Shown: positions 4,519-24,148 of the stretch, piece after piece
Position numbering within the stretch: the first letter of the stretch is position 1
Layout: every line of letters starts with the position of its first letter
Virus record (IMG/VR): IMGVR_UViG_3300031841_002410
Location: 1 to 46,585 of that record
From: a virus
Direction: 5' to 3' (one strand)
Length of the DNA stretch: 46,585 bases
Translations under genes and position numbers: made by a program
Notes under the pieces: generated by a model
Database searches by the model: none
What the model saw: the letters and a program-made list of their open reading frames with translations, nothing else
What the model was told of the DNA's origin: nothing

Positions 4519-5111
4519 TATCCATTTCCTCCATTAGCATAATCAGCCAAAGCAGTTCCGATTGCTCCAACAGCATCTCCAACCGCGGCACCTGCGGCTT
4601 GTTCAGCGCTGGTCGCTCTATTGTTTAGTCTATCTGCTTGACGAGATAGACTACCCGATAACGAATCACCTGGGTTTTGGCCCAAGCCGACTTGTAAGAA
4701 CCTTAGTTTGTCTTCAGCAACCATAGCTTCAGATGAACGTCTAATGTTGGCACGTTCTACCATTGAAGTATTTTCTAATTGCAATTCAGCTGCCGCAGCT
4801 AAACCACTATCGTCTATACCACGTTGAGCTAATCTTTCAGTAAGTCCAGTAAGAGCTCTTTCTTTTTCTACCTCGTAAGCTTCCAAGCCCATGACTTCGT
4901 AATCTTCTGGCGATAATTCCATGAAGTATTCTCCAAGGTTTTCTTGAAGGCCTCCATAAATAGACTGCCAATCGTTATAACGTTGCTGTTCAAAGTCAAG
5001 CTGTTGTTGTTCAATCGTCCCAGCTTCCTTACGAGCATCTTTAGCATCTTTGTTAGAGAAGTATGCGCTTGTTAAAGCGACACCTCCTGCTATCACTGCG
5101 CCCCAAGCCAT
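4518..5111 (-). CDS. Internal virion protein, gp14-like/DNA-transfer candidate
   Basis: A 197-aa protein with a short hydrophobic, Gly/Ala-rich N-terminus (WGAVIAGGVALTSAYF, residues 3-18) followed by a long charged helix rich in Gln and Glu, then a conserved-looking 'GIDDSGLAAAAELQ' and a Gly/Ala-rich C-terminus. This plan (N-terminal membrane-active segment, Q-rich helix, small size, next to portal and other ejection genes) is the plan of T7 gp14 and P22 gp7-type proteins that build the ejection channel in the cell envelope. The start is fixed by TAATG coupling with the cupin-like gene. Assignment rests on architecture and position, not on a unique motif. Confidence 0.6.
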   Translation of the reverse strand: MAWGAVIAGGVALTSAYFSNKDAKDARKEAGTIEQQQLDFEQQRYNDWQSIYGGLQENLGEYFMELSPEDYEVMGLEAYEVEKERALTGLTERLAQRGIDDSGLAAAAELQLENTSMVERANIRRSSEAMVAEDKLRFLQVGLGQNPGDSLSGSLSRQADRLNNRATSAEQAAGAAVGDAVGAIGTALADYANGGNG

Positions 5112-5515
5112 TATTTAACCTCGCTTATTAATTTACTATTATCGATGACCTGTTCTTCAATCTTGTCCAGGTCAGTCTCATCAGTAACGTGAATATTAAT
5201 CCAGACTGTATCTTCTAAAGCATAACCAGCTCGCTTAGTACCTGGTTCAGACACGAAAATACAAGGAGCTGAAATTTCTTTTGTTCCATCTTCTGTAGCA
5301 ACTAAGATACGACCTTTAGCAACTATATTAAGATGTTGAGTTTTGTGAATCTTACCAGTCAGCATAGTACCTTTAGGAATGTTCATACAACGAGCATAAA
5401 CACCATCTGCAAATACGTGGTCTACAGGAGCTAAGCCTTCTGGCATCTTTCTTAAAGACTCTTCCAGCTTTGCCATACGTGCCATATGGTCTGCCAATTT
5501 AGTAATAGTACTCAT
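5111..5515 (-). CDS. Cupin-like small phage protein
   Basis: I set the start at the ATG at 5515, which overlaps the upstream stop as ATGA and gives 134 aa; an in-frame ATG at 5527 would begin inside the upstream gene. After an N-terminal helix the protein has a beta-rich region with cupin character: 'MLTGKIHKTQHLNIVAKGRILVATEDG', then 'APCIFVSEPGTKRAGYALEDTVWINIHVT'. These resemble the two cupin strands that carry metal ligands (His in KTQHLN; His in NIHVT). Proteins like this are common beside tail genes in aquatic phages and have no assigned role. Structural or decoration function is likely from position; enzymatic activity is unproven. Confidence 0.6.
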   Translation of the reverse strand: MSTITKLADHMARMAKLEESLRKMPEGLAPVDHVFADGVYARCMNIPKGTMLTGKIHKTQHLNIVAKGRILVATEDGTKEISAPCIFVSEPGTKRAGYALEDTVWINIHVTDETDLDKIEEQVIDNSKLISEVK

Positions 5516-6015
5516 AGCTGAGTCCAACCGTTAGTTATTGCTTGAGCAAAAGTATCTCCAGTTCTTTGAAATACTCTTAAGTTAGTGCCTGTATCTTCTA
5601 TCGCGACTATTTGCCAAATACCACCAACAAAAGAAGTAACGTTATGTGCGTATATAACGTAAGTAGTTCCTCCTGTTAAAGCAACTGGAGGATTCGATAA
5701 TGCACTACCTAGGGCACTAAACCTATAGTAGCCTCGTAGAGCACTCCAAATAGTTTCGTTAAAGTTATAGTAAGATGCATCTAGTTCTCTTCCATTAAAT
5801 ATGACCGCGTCCTCTAATTGTTCTACTCTTTCAATTAACGACTTTACATCAGATTGTAGTTTTGCTATTTGTTCAGCTTGATTAGTAACTTCGTCACTCG
5901 TAGTAGAACTTGTTTCAGCTTGAGACGAAATCTTCTCTACTGTTCGTTGAAGAAAGTTCTTTAACGCTATTGGGTTAGAAACGTCTTGTGGCGGTGTATC
6001 GTACAAATTAGTCAT
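5512..6015 (-). CDS. Tail-associated protein with coiled coil, 167 aa
   Basis: Residues about 20-75 form a heptad-rich coiled coil (TNQAEQIAKLQSDVKSLIERV followed by EQLEDAV), a trimerisation style typical of fibre and spike proteins. The C-terminal 85 residues are beta-rich and aromatic, ending in 'FAQAITNGWTQL', a style seen at the ends of phage fibre or needle domains. It overlaps the start of the cupin-like gene (ATGA) and the stop of the nozzle gene. It may be a short fibre, a nozzle plug or an assembly chaperone; sequence alone does not decide. Confidence 0.5.
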   Translation of the reverse strand: MTNLYDTPPQDVSNPIALKNFLQRTVEKISSQAETSSTTSDEVTNQAEQIAKLQSDVKSLIERVEQLEDAVIFNGRELDASYYNFNETIWSALRGYYRFSALGSALSNPPVALTGGTTYVIYAHNVTSFVGGIWQIVAIEDTGTNLRVFQRTGDTFAQAITNGWTQL

Positions 6016-18781: not shown

Positions 18782-20409
18782 CCGGGTTTGTATTAACAGA
18801 AGCTCAATTCACCTTATTGTATCCTGACTTAGCACCTTATTATTCTCGATTTGCTAATCCACCTCCTGTAGGCCTTAGTAAGAAAGAATTCGAAGCTAAA
18901 TACTTAACCTCTAAGTTATGGAGACTTAACAATATCTATAAGATTATCAACAAGGCTGGTGAGTTGGTAACCTTTAAGATGAATTTTGCTCAACATGTAG
19001 TATATGCAGCAAGCAGAGTACATCCTAGGATAATAATCCTTAAATCCAGACAACAAGGCATCAGCACCTTATGGTTAGTTAGCTACTTTGATGACGCTGT
19101 ATGTCAAGGCAATCTTAACTTAGGTCTAATGGCACAAGGTTCAGATGAAGCCGCTACACTATTAGAAAGAACTAAATTGCTATGGGACAAACTAAATGAC
19201 AACGTTAAAGCCTGGAGAAATGTACGACTCCATAAAGATAACTCAAAAGAGTTTAGCTTCTCTAACGATTCTAAAATCTTTATACGAGTATCTTTCCGCT
19301 CAGCTACCTTGCAACGTTTACACATCTCGGAGTTTGGGAAAATCGCGAATCAGTATCCAAAGAGAGCTCGTGAGACAAAAACTGGAACTTTACAAGCGCT
19401 CGGAAAAGGAAACACAGGAGTTATTGAATCGACTGCAGAAGGAATTAATGATTTCAAAGATATGTGGGATAAAGCAGAAATCGCCGACAGAAGTGGAACT
19501 ATGTCATATAAAGATTTTAAGCCCGTTTTCTTGCCCTGGTTTAAGGACCCTGATTGTTACGAGCCAGTTTACCAACCCGATACAGACGATTCTATTGCGT
19601 ACTTTAAAAAGCTAGAAAAAGAAACAGGATACAAGCTAAGTCAAGAGCAGAAGAACTTCTGGATTGCACAAGAAAGAGAACTTGGTAGCGACGTGCACCA
19701 AGAATATCCAGGTACTCCTGATGAAGCTTTCAGTGCGTCGAAGAATGGCTCTTACTGGAGCTCCTTATTCACAGCTGAGGTTGTGCAGCGCAATCGTGCA
19801 GTGACCGACTTATATGACCCTAACCTTCCTGTCGATGTACACTTCGACCTAGGTGTAGATGATTACATGGTCCTTGGCTTCGTGCAGTGGTGGCGAGGAG
19901 AATACCGTATTATAGACGAATACTTCAACGATGGTTATGGTTTAGAGCACTACATCGATGAAATAGCTAGTCGAGGCTACAACATAAGAACTCTTAAATT
20001 CCCTCATGATATAGAAGTGCGTGAGCTATTGACTGGCGACGGTGGAAAAGCAGTTAGCAGGATGGATGGTTGCCGTAAGCTAATTAAGAAGAAGAAGCTT
20101 GGGTGGAAGGTTACTAAGGTCGCAAAGACTAATTTAGCTGATGGTATAGAACGTGTGCGCGTCATAATTAAAGTGCTTCAGATAGACGTCCGCTGCACGT
20201 ATCTCATTAGTTGCTTCCATAAATACACGAAGGAATGGGATGACAAGTTACAAGTATGGAAGAAAACGCCTCGGCATGATGAATACTCGCATGGTGCTGA
20301 TGTAATACGGAGTATCGCTACAGGGACTATCGAGAGTGATAGACATAATCGCTCTAAACATGAACGAGATATTACTGAACCTAAACACAACAGAGGATTT
20401 GACTTATGA
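18778..20409 (+). CDS. terL: Terminase large subunit
   Basis: A 543-aa packaging motor. The ATPase domain has the Walker A-like 'LKSRQQGIST' (about residues 88-97) and a Walker B-like strand ending 'LHISEFGK' (about 179-186). The nuclease domain begins with 'DVHFDLGVDDYMVLGFVQWW' (acidic residues of the RNase H fold, about 357 onward), followed by 'FPHDIE' and a late 'HDEYSHGADVIRSI', the usual last acidic motif. The form is close to P22-like/headful terminases, which would agree with a circularly permuted genome. It lies on the opposite strand from portal and capsid. Confidence 0.9.
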   Translation: MTGFVLTEAQFTLLYPDLAPYYSRFANPPPVGLSKKEFEAKYLTSKLWRLNNIYKIINKAGELVTFKMNFAQHVVYAASRVHPRIIILKSRQQGISTLWLVSYFDDAVCQGNLNLGLMAQGSDEAATLLERTKLLWDKLNDNVKAWRNVRLHKDNSKEFSFSNDSKIFIRVSFRSATLQRLHISEFGKIANQYPKRARETKTGTLQALGKGNTGVIESTAEGINDFKDMWDKAEIADRSGTMSYKDFKPVFLPWFKDPDCYEPVYQPDTDDSIAYFKKLEKETGYKLSQEQKNFWIAQERELGSDVHQEYPGTPDEAFSASKNGSYWSSLFTAEVVQRNRAVTDLYDPNLPVDVHFDLGVDDYMVLGFVQWWRGEYRIIDEYFNDGYGLEHYIDEIASRGYNIRTLKFPHDIEVRELLTGDGGKAVSRMDGCRKLIKKKKLGWKVTKVAKTNLADGIERVRVIIKVLQIDVRCTYLISCFHKYTKEWDDKLQVWKKTPRHDEYSHGADVIRSIATGTIESDRHNRSKHERDITEPKHNRGFDL

Positions 20410-20900
20410 TAAACTATATAGGCATAAAAGAACTAAGAGCTACACCAATGACTAGAGGTGAATACAATCTATACAGAGGCTGGGACTGTCCGCCTGACGA
20501 GAATCCAGGAGACTCTGGCTATCTAGTAGAATACAAGGTTGCGGAAGGCAATAATAGTAATCATGTTAATCATGCTGGCTATATCAGCTGGTCTCCTAGT
20601 GCTGTATTCGACAACCATTACAGATGCTCAGGCTACCTAAGTTTTAGTCATGCTCTTGAACTATTAAAGCAAGGCCATCGCGTGGCGCGCGCAGGGTGGA
20701 ATGGAAAGAGCATGTTTATATTCTTAGTACCAGGGAGCAACTTTAAAGTAAATCGTCCACCTTTATTGGGAATTTACCCTGAAGGTACTGAAATTGACTA
20801 TCACTCTCATATAGATATGAAAACGGCTGATAATCAAGTAGTACCTTGGCTTGCCTCACAAACTGACATGCTTGCTGATGATTGGGAAGTTGTTGGGTAA
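20406..20900 (+). CDS. Tad2-like (DUF2829) protein with N-terminal phage domain
   Basis: A 164-aa two-domain protein. The C-terminal half (about residues 77-164) carries the DUF2829/Tad2 pattern: 'SFSHALELLKQGHRVARAGWNGKSMF' and the ending 'ADNQVVPWLASQTDMLADDWEVVG'. Tad2 proteins block Thoeris defence by sequestering the cyclic ADP-ribose-type signal. The N-terminal half ('RATPMTRGEYNLYRGW', 'DSGYLVEYKV', 'GYISWSPSAVFDNHYR') is another frequent phage domain, often fused to this one. It overlaps the terL stop (ATGA), so is made with terminase. The family match is strong; anti-Thoeris activity is not proven because many DUF2829 members are untested. Confidence 0.75.
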   Translation: MINYIGIKELRATPMTRGEYNLYRGWDCPPDENPGDSGYLVEYKVAEGNNSNHVNHAGYISWSPSAVFDNHYRCSGYLSFSHALELLKQGHRVARAGWNGKSMFIFLVPGSNFKVNRPPLLGIYPEGTEIDYHSHIDMKTADNQVVPWLASQTDMLADDWEVVG

Positions 20901-21729: not shown

Positions 21730-22158
21730 ATGACTAATATCAAAAAGCAATTCACTAATCTTCATTCACTACTTATTGCGAATCAAGGCAAAAAGTTAAC
21801 TAAAAACTTGGTGGCGGAATTCGAAGAATTAATGACAAGCAAAGTCGCGAGCTCTACGGTGAGAAAAGATGATGAGGGTAATGTTACTCATGTATTTTGT
21901 TACTATCATAAAGAGTGGGAAGACGTCAACGAAGTACCATATGGCAAGAAATCTAATACTGCGAGCGGTTTAAATACTATGTGCAAACAAGGTTTGAGTC
22001 ATTGGACTAAGCAAAATAGAAAAGCTAAGCAAGAAGAGAGTGAACTATTGAGCAAAGTCGCTAGTGGTGAGGTTGATGCGAGCGAAGTTGGTACATTGCT
22101 AGAAGAAATCAAGGAACGAGCTAAGACTATAGTAGCATTTCAAGACCAAGCAAGCTAA
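21730..22158 (+). CDS. Early paralogue A, Cys/His-containing protein of unknown function
   Basis: A 142-aa protein homologous to the product of 22786-23262. Shared core: 'DDEGNV...FCYYHKEWEDVNEVPYGKKSNTASGLNTMCKQGLSHWT' here against 'DEEGNV...RCGYHKKWMDPSVVEFGVKKSSATGLNSMCKDGMSKWT' there, and then 'VASGEVDASEV' against 'VASGEIDAADV'. The conserved C-x2-H and a later Cys could bind zinc. N- and C-terminal parts are charged helices. Similar proteins occur in aquatic phages without a named role, to my recollection. It has its own ribosome site (GAGG) and terminator at 22167. DNA binding is a guess. Confidence 0.65.
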   Translation: MTNIKKQFTNLHSLLIANQGKKLTKNLVAEFEELMTSKVASSTVRKDDEGNVTHVFCYYHKEWEDVNEVPYGKKSNTASGLNTMCKQGLSHWTKQNRKAKQEESELLSKVASGEVDASEVGTLLEEIKERAKTIVAFQDQAS

Positions 22159-22166
22159 ACTAGATG

Positions 22167-22202
22167 AGAATGGGTGATTTTACTAAGTAATTCATCCATT
22201 CT
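22167..22202 (+). terminator. Rho-independent terminator after paralogue A
   Basis: AGAATGGGTGA (22167-22177) pairs with TCATCCATTCT (22192-22202) over 11 bp with one G-T pair and a 14-base loop, followed by TCATTTATTT. It lies 8 bases after the paralogue A stop. Confidence 0.55.
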
Positions 22203-22204
22203 TC

Positions 22205-22342
22205 ATTTATTTAGTACCTTATAAATCCTATATTTATATTTATATATATATATTATATATATTAGACGTATAGACGTCCATACCTATATTTATATATTAA
22301 CCGCTATTTTTTTAAATAGGATTTGTAACGTACTAAATAAAT
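22205..22342. repeat. 27-bp inverted repeat around an AT-rich core
   Basis: The left arm (22205-22231, beginning ATTTATTTAGTAC) and the reverse complement of the right arm (22316-22342) agree at 25 of 27 positions. They flank 84 bp that are nearly pure A/T on the left (alternating TATATA) and include the direct repeat TAGACGTA-TAGACGTC. The region lies between paralogue A and the SET gene and encodes nothing. A cruciform-forming site, replication origin, or recognition site for a dimeric protein would look like this. Confidence 0.6.
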
Positions 22343-22372
22343 AATAAATTAATAAAACGTAGGTACCAAAAC

Positions 22373-22705
22373 ATGACCAGACTATTTGTAAAACTTTCAA
22401 GCATTCACGGTAAAGGCTTATTCACACATTACCATATAAGTGAACATGACCTCATCGCAGTCTTTGAGCAACGACCCGCCACTCCCAGTGAGTTAGCTAG
22501 TGACCATCCTCATGTTATAGAAAACCTGGGTGTCATGATGCTCGGAAAACATAAGTATATAAATCATAGCGATGAGCCGAACGTCGAGCTCTACGACGAC
22601 GGTAGAATTATAGCTATAAGAGATATTGAACCAGGACAGGAAATACTCAGTGACTATGGTCCTTACTTTAGTTCCCTGTACAGTAAGGGTAAGACTCGAA
22701 ATTAA
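22373..22705 (+). CDS. SET-domain protein-lysine methyltransferase
   Basis: A 110-aa protein that consists of little more than a SET domain. Motifs in order: 'SSIHGKGLFT' (the G-x-G/GKGLF SAM-binding start, residues about 9-18), 'KYINHSDEPNVEL' (the NHS-x2-PN motif, about 61-73) and 'IEPGQEILSDYGPYF' (the GEE-x3-DY motif with the catalytic Tyr, about 84-98). All key SET motifs are present, so it is likely active and transfers methyl from SAM to lysine on a protein. Targets are unknown. It lies between two paralogous early genes. Viral stand-alone SET enzymes are known (Chlorella virus vSET) but are uncommon in phages. Confidence 0.8.
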   Translation: MTRLFVKLSSIHGKGLFTHYHISEHDLIAVFEQRPATPSELASDHPHVIENLGVMMLGKHKYINHSDEPNVELYDDGRIIAIRDIEPGQEILSDYGPYFSSLYSKGKTRN

Positions 22706-22708
22706 ATG

Positions 22709-22737
22709 TTTACAACCTTCGAAAATTCATATATAAT
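22709..22737 (+). promoter_or_regulatory. Near-consensus sigma70 promoter for paralogue B
   Basis: TTTACA (22709-22714), a 17-base spacer and a perfect TATAAT (22732-22737). The predicted start near 22744 coincides with a small hairpin ATCTC-ATCT-GAGAT (22743-22756), so the mRNA would begin with a stem. Strong early host-polymerase promoter. Confidence 0.7.
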
Positions 22738-22785
22738 AAAATATCTCATCTGAGATTTTATATAATTTAACTGGAGATTTTAATC

Positions 22786-23262
22786 ATGGCAATTAAGAAA
22801 GCATATCAAGCAATCGTATCACTGTTGGAAGCTAATCGTGGGGAACTAGTAGAGAACATTATCGACAACGTCATTGAGCTCGCATCAGCGAAATCTGGTG
22901 GTGGCGGTGGTAAAGCTACTACTCATCACAGAGATGAAGAAGGTAATGTCGTAGCAATTCGTTGTGGTTACCACAAGAAGTGGATGGACCCATCAGTCGT
23001 TGAGTTCGGTGTTAAGAAATCATCTGCAACTGGACTTAATAGCATGTGTAAAGACGGTATGAGCAAGTGGACATCACAGAACAGTGCTTATGCTAAAGCG
23101 AAAGGTCAACTCTTAGAAGATGTTGCATCAGGTGAGATTGATGCTGCAGACGTTAAAGATGCACTTGACGCACTCGCTGAAGCTAAAGCTGAGATTGTTC
23201 CTATCGAGGGTGATTACCAAGGGTTTGACACTCTTGAAGATTGCTTAGCAGCACAACAGTAG
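22786..23262 (+). CDS. Early paralogue B, probably highly expressed
   Basis: A 158-aa paralogue of the product of 21730-22158 (see core match there). It keeps the C-x2-H (RCGYHKKW) and 'SMCKDGMSKWT' but has a Gly-rich insertion after the N-terminal helices (KSGGGGGK) and a longer acidic C-terminus ('ALAEAKAEIVPIEGDYQGFDTLEDCLAAQQ'). It has its own strong promoter, ribosome site (GGAG, 9 bases before ATG) and terminator, so it is a single-gene transcript. Codon use is richer in G/C than its neighbours, which also suggests high expression. An abundant DNA-binding or host-targeting protein is plausible but unproven. Confidence 0.7.
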   Translation: MAIKKAYQAIVSLLEANRGELVENIIDNVIELASAKSGGGGGKATTHHRDEEGNVVAIRCGYHKKWMDPSVVEFGVKKSSATGLNSMCKDGMSKWTSQNSAYAKAKGQLLEDVASGEIDAADVKDALDALAEAKAEIVPIEGDYQGFDTLEDCLAAQQ

Positions 23263-23334: not shown

Positions 23335-23742
23335 ATGAATAAACAAGTACTTAGAACCTTAGTATCATTTAGCGACCATGTTCTACTTACCTACGAGCTA
23401 TATGGCATTAGAAAGAATAGGAAAGTTATTGAGGAGTATATCAACAGTAATGCTACCGAATTAGAAATGTGGTGCGAAGGTTGCTGGCACAAACTAAAAA
23501 ATCCTACCTTCTCCGATGATACTGAGTATCGTATGCTACCACAACGTCGCTTGCATGGTGAAATAGTATTTGAGCCATTATTAGGTGACAACTACTTCTA
23601 TTGTTCTCATGACTGTGTCAGACTTACTAAGTGGCAAGATACTTCACAAGACCGCAGTTTAGTAATTAAAGGTAATTGCTTTCGCACTAGAGAAGAAGCC
23701 TTAAGAGTGTACCATAAGATTTGGGGACCAGACAATGAATAA
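23335..23742 (+). CDS. Early protein of the 'GNCF-TREEA' family, copy 1
   Basis: A 135-aa protein paralogous to the next gene. Shared pattern: 'GIRKNRKVIEEY' early, 'VFEP...FYYC' type in the middle ('VFEPLLGDNYFYCSHDCV'), and 'LVIKGNCFRTREEALRVYHKIWG' at the end. The ending G-N-x-F-x-T-R-E-E-A is seen in many unnamed phage proteins. It has extra Cys residues (CEGCWHK, CSHDC) that the second copy lacks in part, and these could bind zinc. It overlaps copy 2 by 8 bases. Function unknown. Confidence 0.6.
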   Translation: MNKQVLRTLVSFSDHVLLTYELYGIRKNRKVIEEYINSNATELEMWCEGCWHKLKNPTFSDDTEYRMLPQRRLHGEIVFEPLLGDNYFYCSHDCVRLTKWQDTSQDRSLVIKGNCFRTREEALRVYHKIWGPDNE

Positions 23743-24148
23743 GAATAAAAAAGCACTTGAAGCTTTGCTCGCCTTAAGTGACAAGTCGCTCTTGCACTTT
23801 GGCATCGATGGAATAGTTAAGCATCGAAAAGTCGCTGAGAGTTACGTTAAAGGTTTTGAGATACAAGTACGACTTAATGCCGAAAATAGATGGGTTAACT
23901 CAGTAGACCCTCAGTTCTATAGTTTTAAGAGCTATAAAGTAAAGTTTAATCGCAAAGTTTATAGCGAAACCGTCTTTGCGCCTATTAGAGGACAACTGTT
24001 TTACTACTGTGGTGGTGCTGATGTTGTCAATGCTACATGGGTTGGAACAGACGAAGACTTGAAGCTTTTATACAACGGTAACTGTTTTCAAACTAGAGAG
24101 GAAGCCGAAAGAGTACTAGCGAGGATTTGGACTAATGCTGAACGCTAA
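23735..24148 (+). CDS. Early protein of the 'GNCF-TREEA' family, copy 2
   Basis: A 137-aa paralogue of copy 1: 'GIVKHRKVAESY', 'ETVFAPIRGQLFYYCGGADVVNATWVG' and 'LLYNGNCFQTREEAERVLARIW'. In copy 2 the middle 'CEGCW' is replaced by 'LNAENRW', so a zinc site there is not conserved. It overlaps both neighbours, which implies coupled translation. The tandem pair probably arose by duplication followed by divergence. Function unknown. Confidence 0.6.
   Translation: MNKNKKALEALLALSDKSLLHFGIDGIVKHRKVAESYVKGFEIQVRLNAENRWVNSVDPQFYSFKSYKVKFNRKVYSETVFAPIRGQLFYYCGGADVVNATWVGTDEDLKLLYNGNCFQTREEAERVLARIWTNAER

Follow-up and report, generated by a model that had tools for sequence, protein, structure and literature searches.

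SET-domain enzymes are usually treated as eukaryotic, or as effectors against eukaryotic chromatin; the one described here is encoded by a phage of bacteria. The window, i.e. the whole stretch of DNA that was analysed, is an entire IMG/VR record of 46,585 bases with tailed-phage genes (terminase, primase and a Dda-type helicase), and one of its open reading frames encodes a protein of only 110 aa that reads as a SET catalytic domain. What this protein is, where a phage could have obtained it and on what it could act are the questions raised by this locus.

The proposal of a sequence-only reading, that the protein is a stand-alone SET domain with the GxG, NHSxxPN and Tyr motifs, is borne out. 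The protein matches PF00856, and no other Pfam family, with 37.4 bits against a curated cut-off of 22.4 (E 3.7e-9). The Pfam alignment spans residues 48-96 only; the N-terminal GKGLF (residues 13-17) lines up column-wise with the homologues. Further motifs in the translation are NHSDEPN (64-70) and GQEILSDYG (88-96), and the SDYG of the latter provides Tyr95 at the catalytic position, which is invariant among the small bacterial homologues compared below (mini-SETs). A post-SET Cys cluster is absent, and the protein contains hardly more than the SET domain. A profile built from it and five homologues matched solved SET methyltransferases with E-values down to 2e-15; the structures matched (MLL, SUV4-20, NSD, EZH2 and vSET) range from about 1e-8 to 1e-15. 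The AlphaFold2 model (pLDDT 70, pTM 0.65, with residues 45-52 and 100-110 poorly modelled) has vSET of PBCV-1 (3kma) as its top PDB fold match (E 1.2e-6, TM 0.71). The SET-domain assignment is thus confirmed, far above chance, and this is the only SET domain in the 46.6-kb record. A weak Shine-Dalgarno-like AGG triplet is located upstream of the frame, at 22361-22363. No match to the protein was found in PHROG or PADLOC. The features discussed here are collected in Table 1.

Table 1. Positions of the SET gene, its surroundings and related features in the window.
Feature	Position	Strand	Basis or remark
Cupin-like structural protein without SET, phrog_12032 'short tail fiber'	5111-5527	-	Matches the N-terminal half of phrog_34170
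Protein with Tad2-like (Thoeris anti-defence 2-like) C-terminal domain	20406-20900	+	PF11195, E 1.6e-27; between terminase and p1
p1, phrog_10459, upstream flank	21730-22158	+	Core gene of the phage group
Accessory slot, SET its sole gene here	22159-22785	+	Content varies among related phages
AT-rich long inverted repeat between p1 and SET	22191-22231 / 22316-22356		Core arms 22205-22231 / 22316-22342
Stand-alone SET-domain protein, 110 aa, ATG start	22373-22705	+	ORF, PF00856, vSET fold match, homologues
p2, phrog_10459 paralogue, downstream flank	22786-23262	+	40% identical to p1

The phage was placed through its proteins. A search of the phage collection at the DNA level gave no relative, and direct scans with p2 alone or primase alone found no near relatives. 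In primase and phrog_10459, identities of about 39-56% connect it to the named phages KF-1 of Edwardsiella (Kafunavirus), VPMS1 of Vibrio and PH1 of Pseudoalteromonas, as well as to Dickeya phage Amaethon and two Manatee Spring genomes. Eighteen IMG/VR records are also related; for the nearest, the figure rises to 61-72% in primase, helicase or terminase. Of the 18, three appear to duplicate KF-1, VPMS1 and PH1. By protein similarity, the window phage belongs with the Kafunavirus-like podovirus group, and its host is probably gammaproteobacterial because the hosts of related phages are.

The surroundings of the SET gene were compared across 21 relatives. The gene order terminase - p1 - variable genes - p2 - primase - helicase recurs wherever the stretch suffices, and the p1-p2 interval holds differing small genes over about 0.6 to 4.6 kb. 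The flanking family phrog_10459 is found in all 21 relatives in one to three copies (at least two copies in 17 of the 21), the primase is conserved, and so are terminase and helicase where the stretch reaches them. None of the 21 relatives has a SET gene within the slot. This absence alongside conserved core genes fits an accessory cargo gene. In a search of whole records, a SET domain was detected anywhere in only two of the 21, PH1 and MW202744, in both cases as a fusion to a cupin-like domain among structural genes; since several of the 21 records are fragments, absence of SET in them is no proof. That SET is ancestral in this phage group is unsupported: 19 of the 21 relatives (some of them fragments) gave no match, and the other two carry their fusions elsewhere.

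Several other elements of this region were observed. In the window and in several relatives (L027, L032, L035, L039 and L044), an inverted repeat follows the p1 stop at a distance of 17-108 nt, with arms of 23-45 nt; the position recurs and the sequence does not. In six of 15 phages these repeats score at least about double the highest of six shuffles, and in three more they are weaker. The window repeat segment folds as RNA with a z of -6.0, and the repeat may serve as an origin of replication or as a regulatory stem. Rfam elements were not found around the slot, and promoter and terminator scans gave no excess over shuffles. In the phrog_10459 family, the motifs Y-x3-W and N-x-M-[CS]-K are conserved; the AlphaFold2 model of p2 (pLDDT 91, 27-sequence alignment) did not match any PDB fold significantly (best E 2.6), and going by this model the family possibly represents a new fold. 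Beyond p2, two adjacent, overlapping frames (23335-23742 and 23735-24148) encode tandem paralogues that are 36% identical. The Tad2-like protein upstream of p1 has a second, N-terminal region corresponding to phrog_872 and is a candidate sponge for Thoeris or nucleotide signals.

The closest relatives of the SET protein are bacterial. Homologues were detected in 76 of 369 sampled gammaproteobacterial genomes (best E 3e-16, up to 46% identity), with frames mostly of about 95-180 residues and genes of 95-132 aa in the best 20 inspected. They are mostly orphan genes of ~100 aa, as in Parahaliea maris (L015) or at locus L063. A sample of 149 genomes from the class to which one Bacteroidetes genome belongs gave matches in 22, which were weaker (best E 4e-8) and mostly in longer frames. 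The expectation that such enzymes are mostly eukaryotic or chromatin-directed finds no support here, as the closest homologues are small orphan genes that occur in about a fifth of the sampled Gammaproteobacteria. A chromatin-directed role is unlikely, because the host is bacterial and the closest kin sit on bacterial chromosomes, in ordinary and varied surroundings. Across 20 bacterial loci, no conserved operon partner was found beyond two groups of three genomes, and these neighbourhoods give no shared pointer to a substrate. In three genomes (L065, L067 and L069), the mini-SET lies downstream of a methyltransferase-domain gene and a DUF1698 (PF08003, CmoB-like) gene in a cmoAB-like arrangement. 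A SET gene of Haliea salexigens appears disrupted: an open stretch of 43 aa (L023, 1671-1799) is left beside a transposase-like gene, and the matched region contains four in-frame stops.

The phylogeny (92 rows, 102 columns, of limited resolution) groups the window protein with 21 bacterial mini-SETs and one viral contig at a support of 95/86, while most viral SETs fall in other groups. The terminal branch of the window protein is long (1.1), no near-identical relative was found, and an AU test did not reject its placement with the cupin-SET fusions (p 0.128). GC (0.414) and GC3 (0.387) of the SET gene are similar to those of its neighbours and hence give no composition signal of recent transfer. 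Taken with the long branch, the limited resolution and the AU result, capture of the gene from a bacterium is favoured by the tree rather than proven.

How far the window protein departs from its bacterial kin was assessed against 20 gammaproteobacterial mini-SETs, Parahaliea and L001. It has the length of the mini-SETs, the GxG, NHS and Tyr motifs and the segment before NHS, and like them has no post-SET Cys cluster. Positions kept comprise Ser9, His12, Gly13, Gly15, Leu16, Asn64, His65, Asn70, Glu90 and Tyr95, of which G13, G15, N64, H65 and N70 are invariant among the mini-SETs compared. The mini-SETs, which are chromosomal, also have an invariant Trp (in an xLW segment before NHS) and an invariant His two residues ahead of the catalytic Tyr, whereas the phage-borne window protein, on its long branch, has a gap and no Trp at all in place of the former and Ser93 in place of the latter. 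Additionally, the invariant or near-invariant Tyr73 of the mini-SETs is Leu. SET enzymes have their Phe/Tyr switch two residues ahead of the catalytic Tyr, and this position affects the number of methyl groups added; a Ser there could change product or substrate preference. Given the missing Trp and His and the long branch, the specificity or activity of the window protein may differ from that of the mini-SETs, and altered specificity or lost activity is possible; its catalytic competence is presumed from motif conservation. As it lacks these two invariants, the protein is classified here as a SET superfamily member and merely as an outlying relative of the mini-SETs.

SET domains are also more common in bacterial viruses than anticipated. 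Phage examples had been considered scarce in the sequence-only reading, a view that the counts contradict: two short patterns derived from mini-SETs found at least 134 IMG/VR contigs with SET relatives (80 were kept), which may include non-phage viruses or cellular DNA. These counts of SET relatives are lower bounds, since the searches used short patterns and samples. Among 83 viral loci, the SET frame has at most 140 residues in 54 and more than 200 in 25, with start codons and domain limits set mechanically. Isolate phages with a SET domain include Stenotrophomonas phage Moby, Yut2, P-SSM7, P-RSM6, Pelagibacter phage Kolga and the cupin-SET phages of PHROG 34170. Some of these proteins had been annotated before: in Moby, in one Manatee Spring genome, where the annotation carries the vSET structure name, and in Stenotrophomonas phage Ps15, for which a SET protein is mentioned without function (PMC9025141). 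Phage SET proteins are thus already annotated in Moby and Ps15, and the window protein adds a member. The statement that they lack known substrates is upheld, as the literature searched reports no substrate for any phage SET or bacterial mini-SET; a study of a phage SET enzyme was not found in that literature either, subscription papers being mostly outside its reach.

The viral and effector proteins resemble the window protein to different degrees. Gp259 of Moby is likewise a stand-alone protein of ~100 aa, with about 31% identity and in another clade, and the SETs of P-SSM7, P-RSM6 and Kolga have the same size and stand-alone form but belong to other clades and are undetected by the window protein. 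The vSET of PBCV-1 (A612L), the best fold match, is also a stand-alone viral SET (about 110-120 aa). At about 25% identity, it is an active H3K27 methyltransferase of a eukaryotic-algal virus, whereas in the present case the virus is a tailed phage and its host, a bacterium, lacks histone H3. The SET effectors secreted by bacteria (NUE, RomA/LegAS4, BtSET and BaSET), which target eukaryotic histones (PMC3980110), have the SET catalytic core in common with the window protein, but the similarity is remote (NCBIfam AnkI/LegAS4 E 0.007, far below cut-off).

A distinct form is phrog_34170, in which a SET domain with NHS and DY motifs is C-terminal to a cupin-like structural domain. It was found in PH1 (L047), MW202744 (L046), zth2-2, P26218 and several IMG/VR contigs, and constitutes a SET domain in a probable virion protein. 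Like the window protein, these fusions bring a SET domain into podoviruses, including distant relatives of the window phage. They differ from it by the cupin fusion, their location in the virion gene block, a short pre-NHS segment and a separate clade in the free tree. The N-terminal cupin-like domain is absent from the window protein.

The reading that we prefer, to which we give about even credence, is that the phage took up a bacterial mini-SET as accessory cargo and that the protein works as a SAM-dependent lysine methyltransferase on a host protein; its activity, the direction of capture, the timing and the class of substrate we infer. A mini-SET gene would have been captured from a bacterium into the p1-p2 slot of a Kafunavirus-like podovirus. 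The protein would be made in the infected cell and bind S-adenosylmethionine via its GxG and NHS motifs, after which a substrate lysine would enter the SET channel beside Tyr95 and receive one or more methyl groups. The likeliest substrate would be a host cytoplasmic protein, perhaps the one that is modified by the host mini-SETs, and its methylation may tune host physiology or a defence in favour of the phage. That the phage SET rewrites the lysine methylation of a specific host protein (RNA polymerase or a nucleoid, translation or defence factor), with a specificity changed from that of the host enzyme, as a tool of takeover or counter-defence, is a rather doubtful prospect.

Other functions were weighed against this reading. 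One that overlaps with it is counter-defence, in which the SET protein modifies an anti-phage defence protein or regulator of the host; the accessory slot in the replication-side region and the Tad2-like protein about 1.5 kb upstream are consistent with it, but Tad2-like domains are widespread, PADLOC gave no match and no counter-defence phage SET appears in the literature searched, and we regard it as unlikely. Phages are known to use decoys of host proteins, and a non-catalytic SET that binds SAM or a partner could block a host mini-SET or its substrate. The loss of the invariant Trp and His and the long branch would suit such a decoy, but the residues for SAM binding and catalysis (GxG, Asn-His and Tyr95) are intact, which leaves it quite unlikely.

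The two remaining alternatives look to the phage's own proteins. The sequence-only reading had suggested the flanking paralogues as substrates, methylation of p1 and p2 altering their binding to DNA or to a host partner. The adjacency and paralogy are real, an invariant lysine of p1 and p2 lies in N-x-M-[CS]-K, with a second one upstream, and other prokaryotic SET proteins target DNA-associated proteins: chlamydial cpnSET acts on Hc1 (PMC3980110), and an archaeal SET protein acts on MC1-alpha, as cited in PMC10117894. The suggestion is weakened, however, because phrog_10459 is kept in all 21 relatives with no SET between its copies (two have the cupin-SET elsewhere), so that p1 and p2 do not need it. 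With slot content variable and the SET gene peculiar to this phage, the paralogous flanks belong to the slot as such, which accounts for the adjacency and makes it weak evidence on the substrate; we consider this function decidedly unlikely. Finally, the protein could have split off as the SET half of a cupin-SET virion protein and, in free form, act on virion proteins. PH1 and MW202744 have the fusion, the cupin gene of the window is its SET-less orthologue and the AU test leaves room for this kinship. Against it, the free tree groups the window SET with the bacterial mini-SETs, the pre-NHS stretch common to both is missing in the cupin-SETs, and the SET gene lies 17 kb from the cupin gene, on the opposite strand and in the replication-side region; this origin is very improbable.

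Several unrelated phage groups carry their own SET forms, and the interest of the locus lies in the little-studied breadth of mini-SETs in Gammaproteobacteria and their phages, together with the cupin-SET fusion. Since methylation can be compared between infected and uninfected cells, the phage copy offers an experimental handle on the targets of mini-SETs. If the phage SET does rewrite the lysine methylation of a specific host protein, SET-based protein methylation, which is widespread in Gammaproteobacteria and apparently unstudied, would also serve phage takeover or counter-defence.
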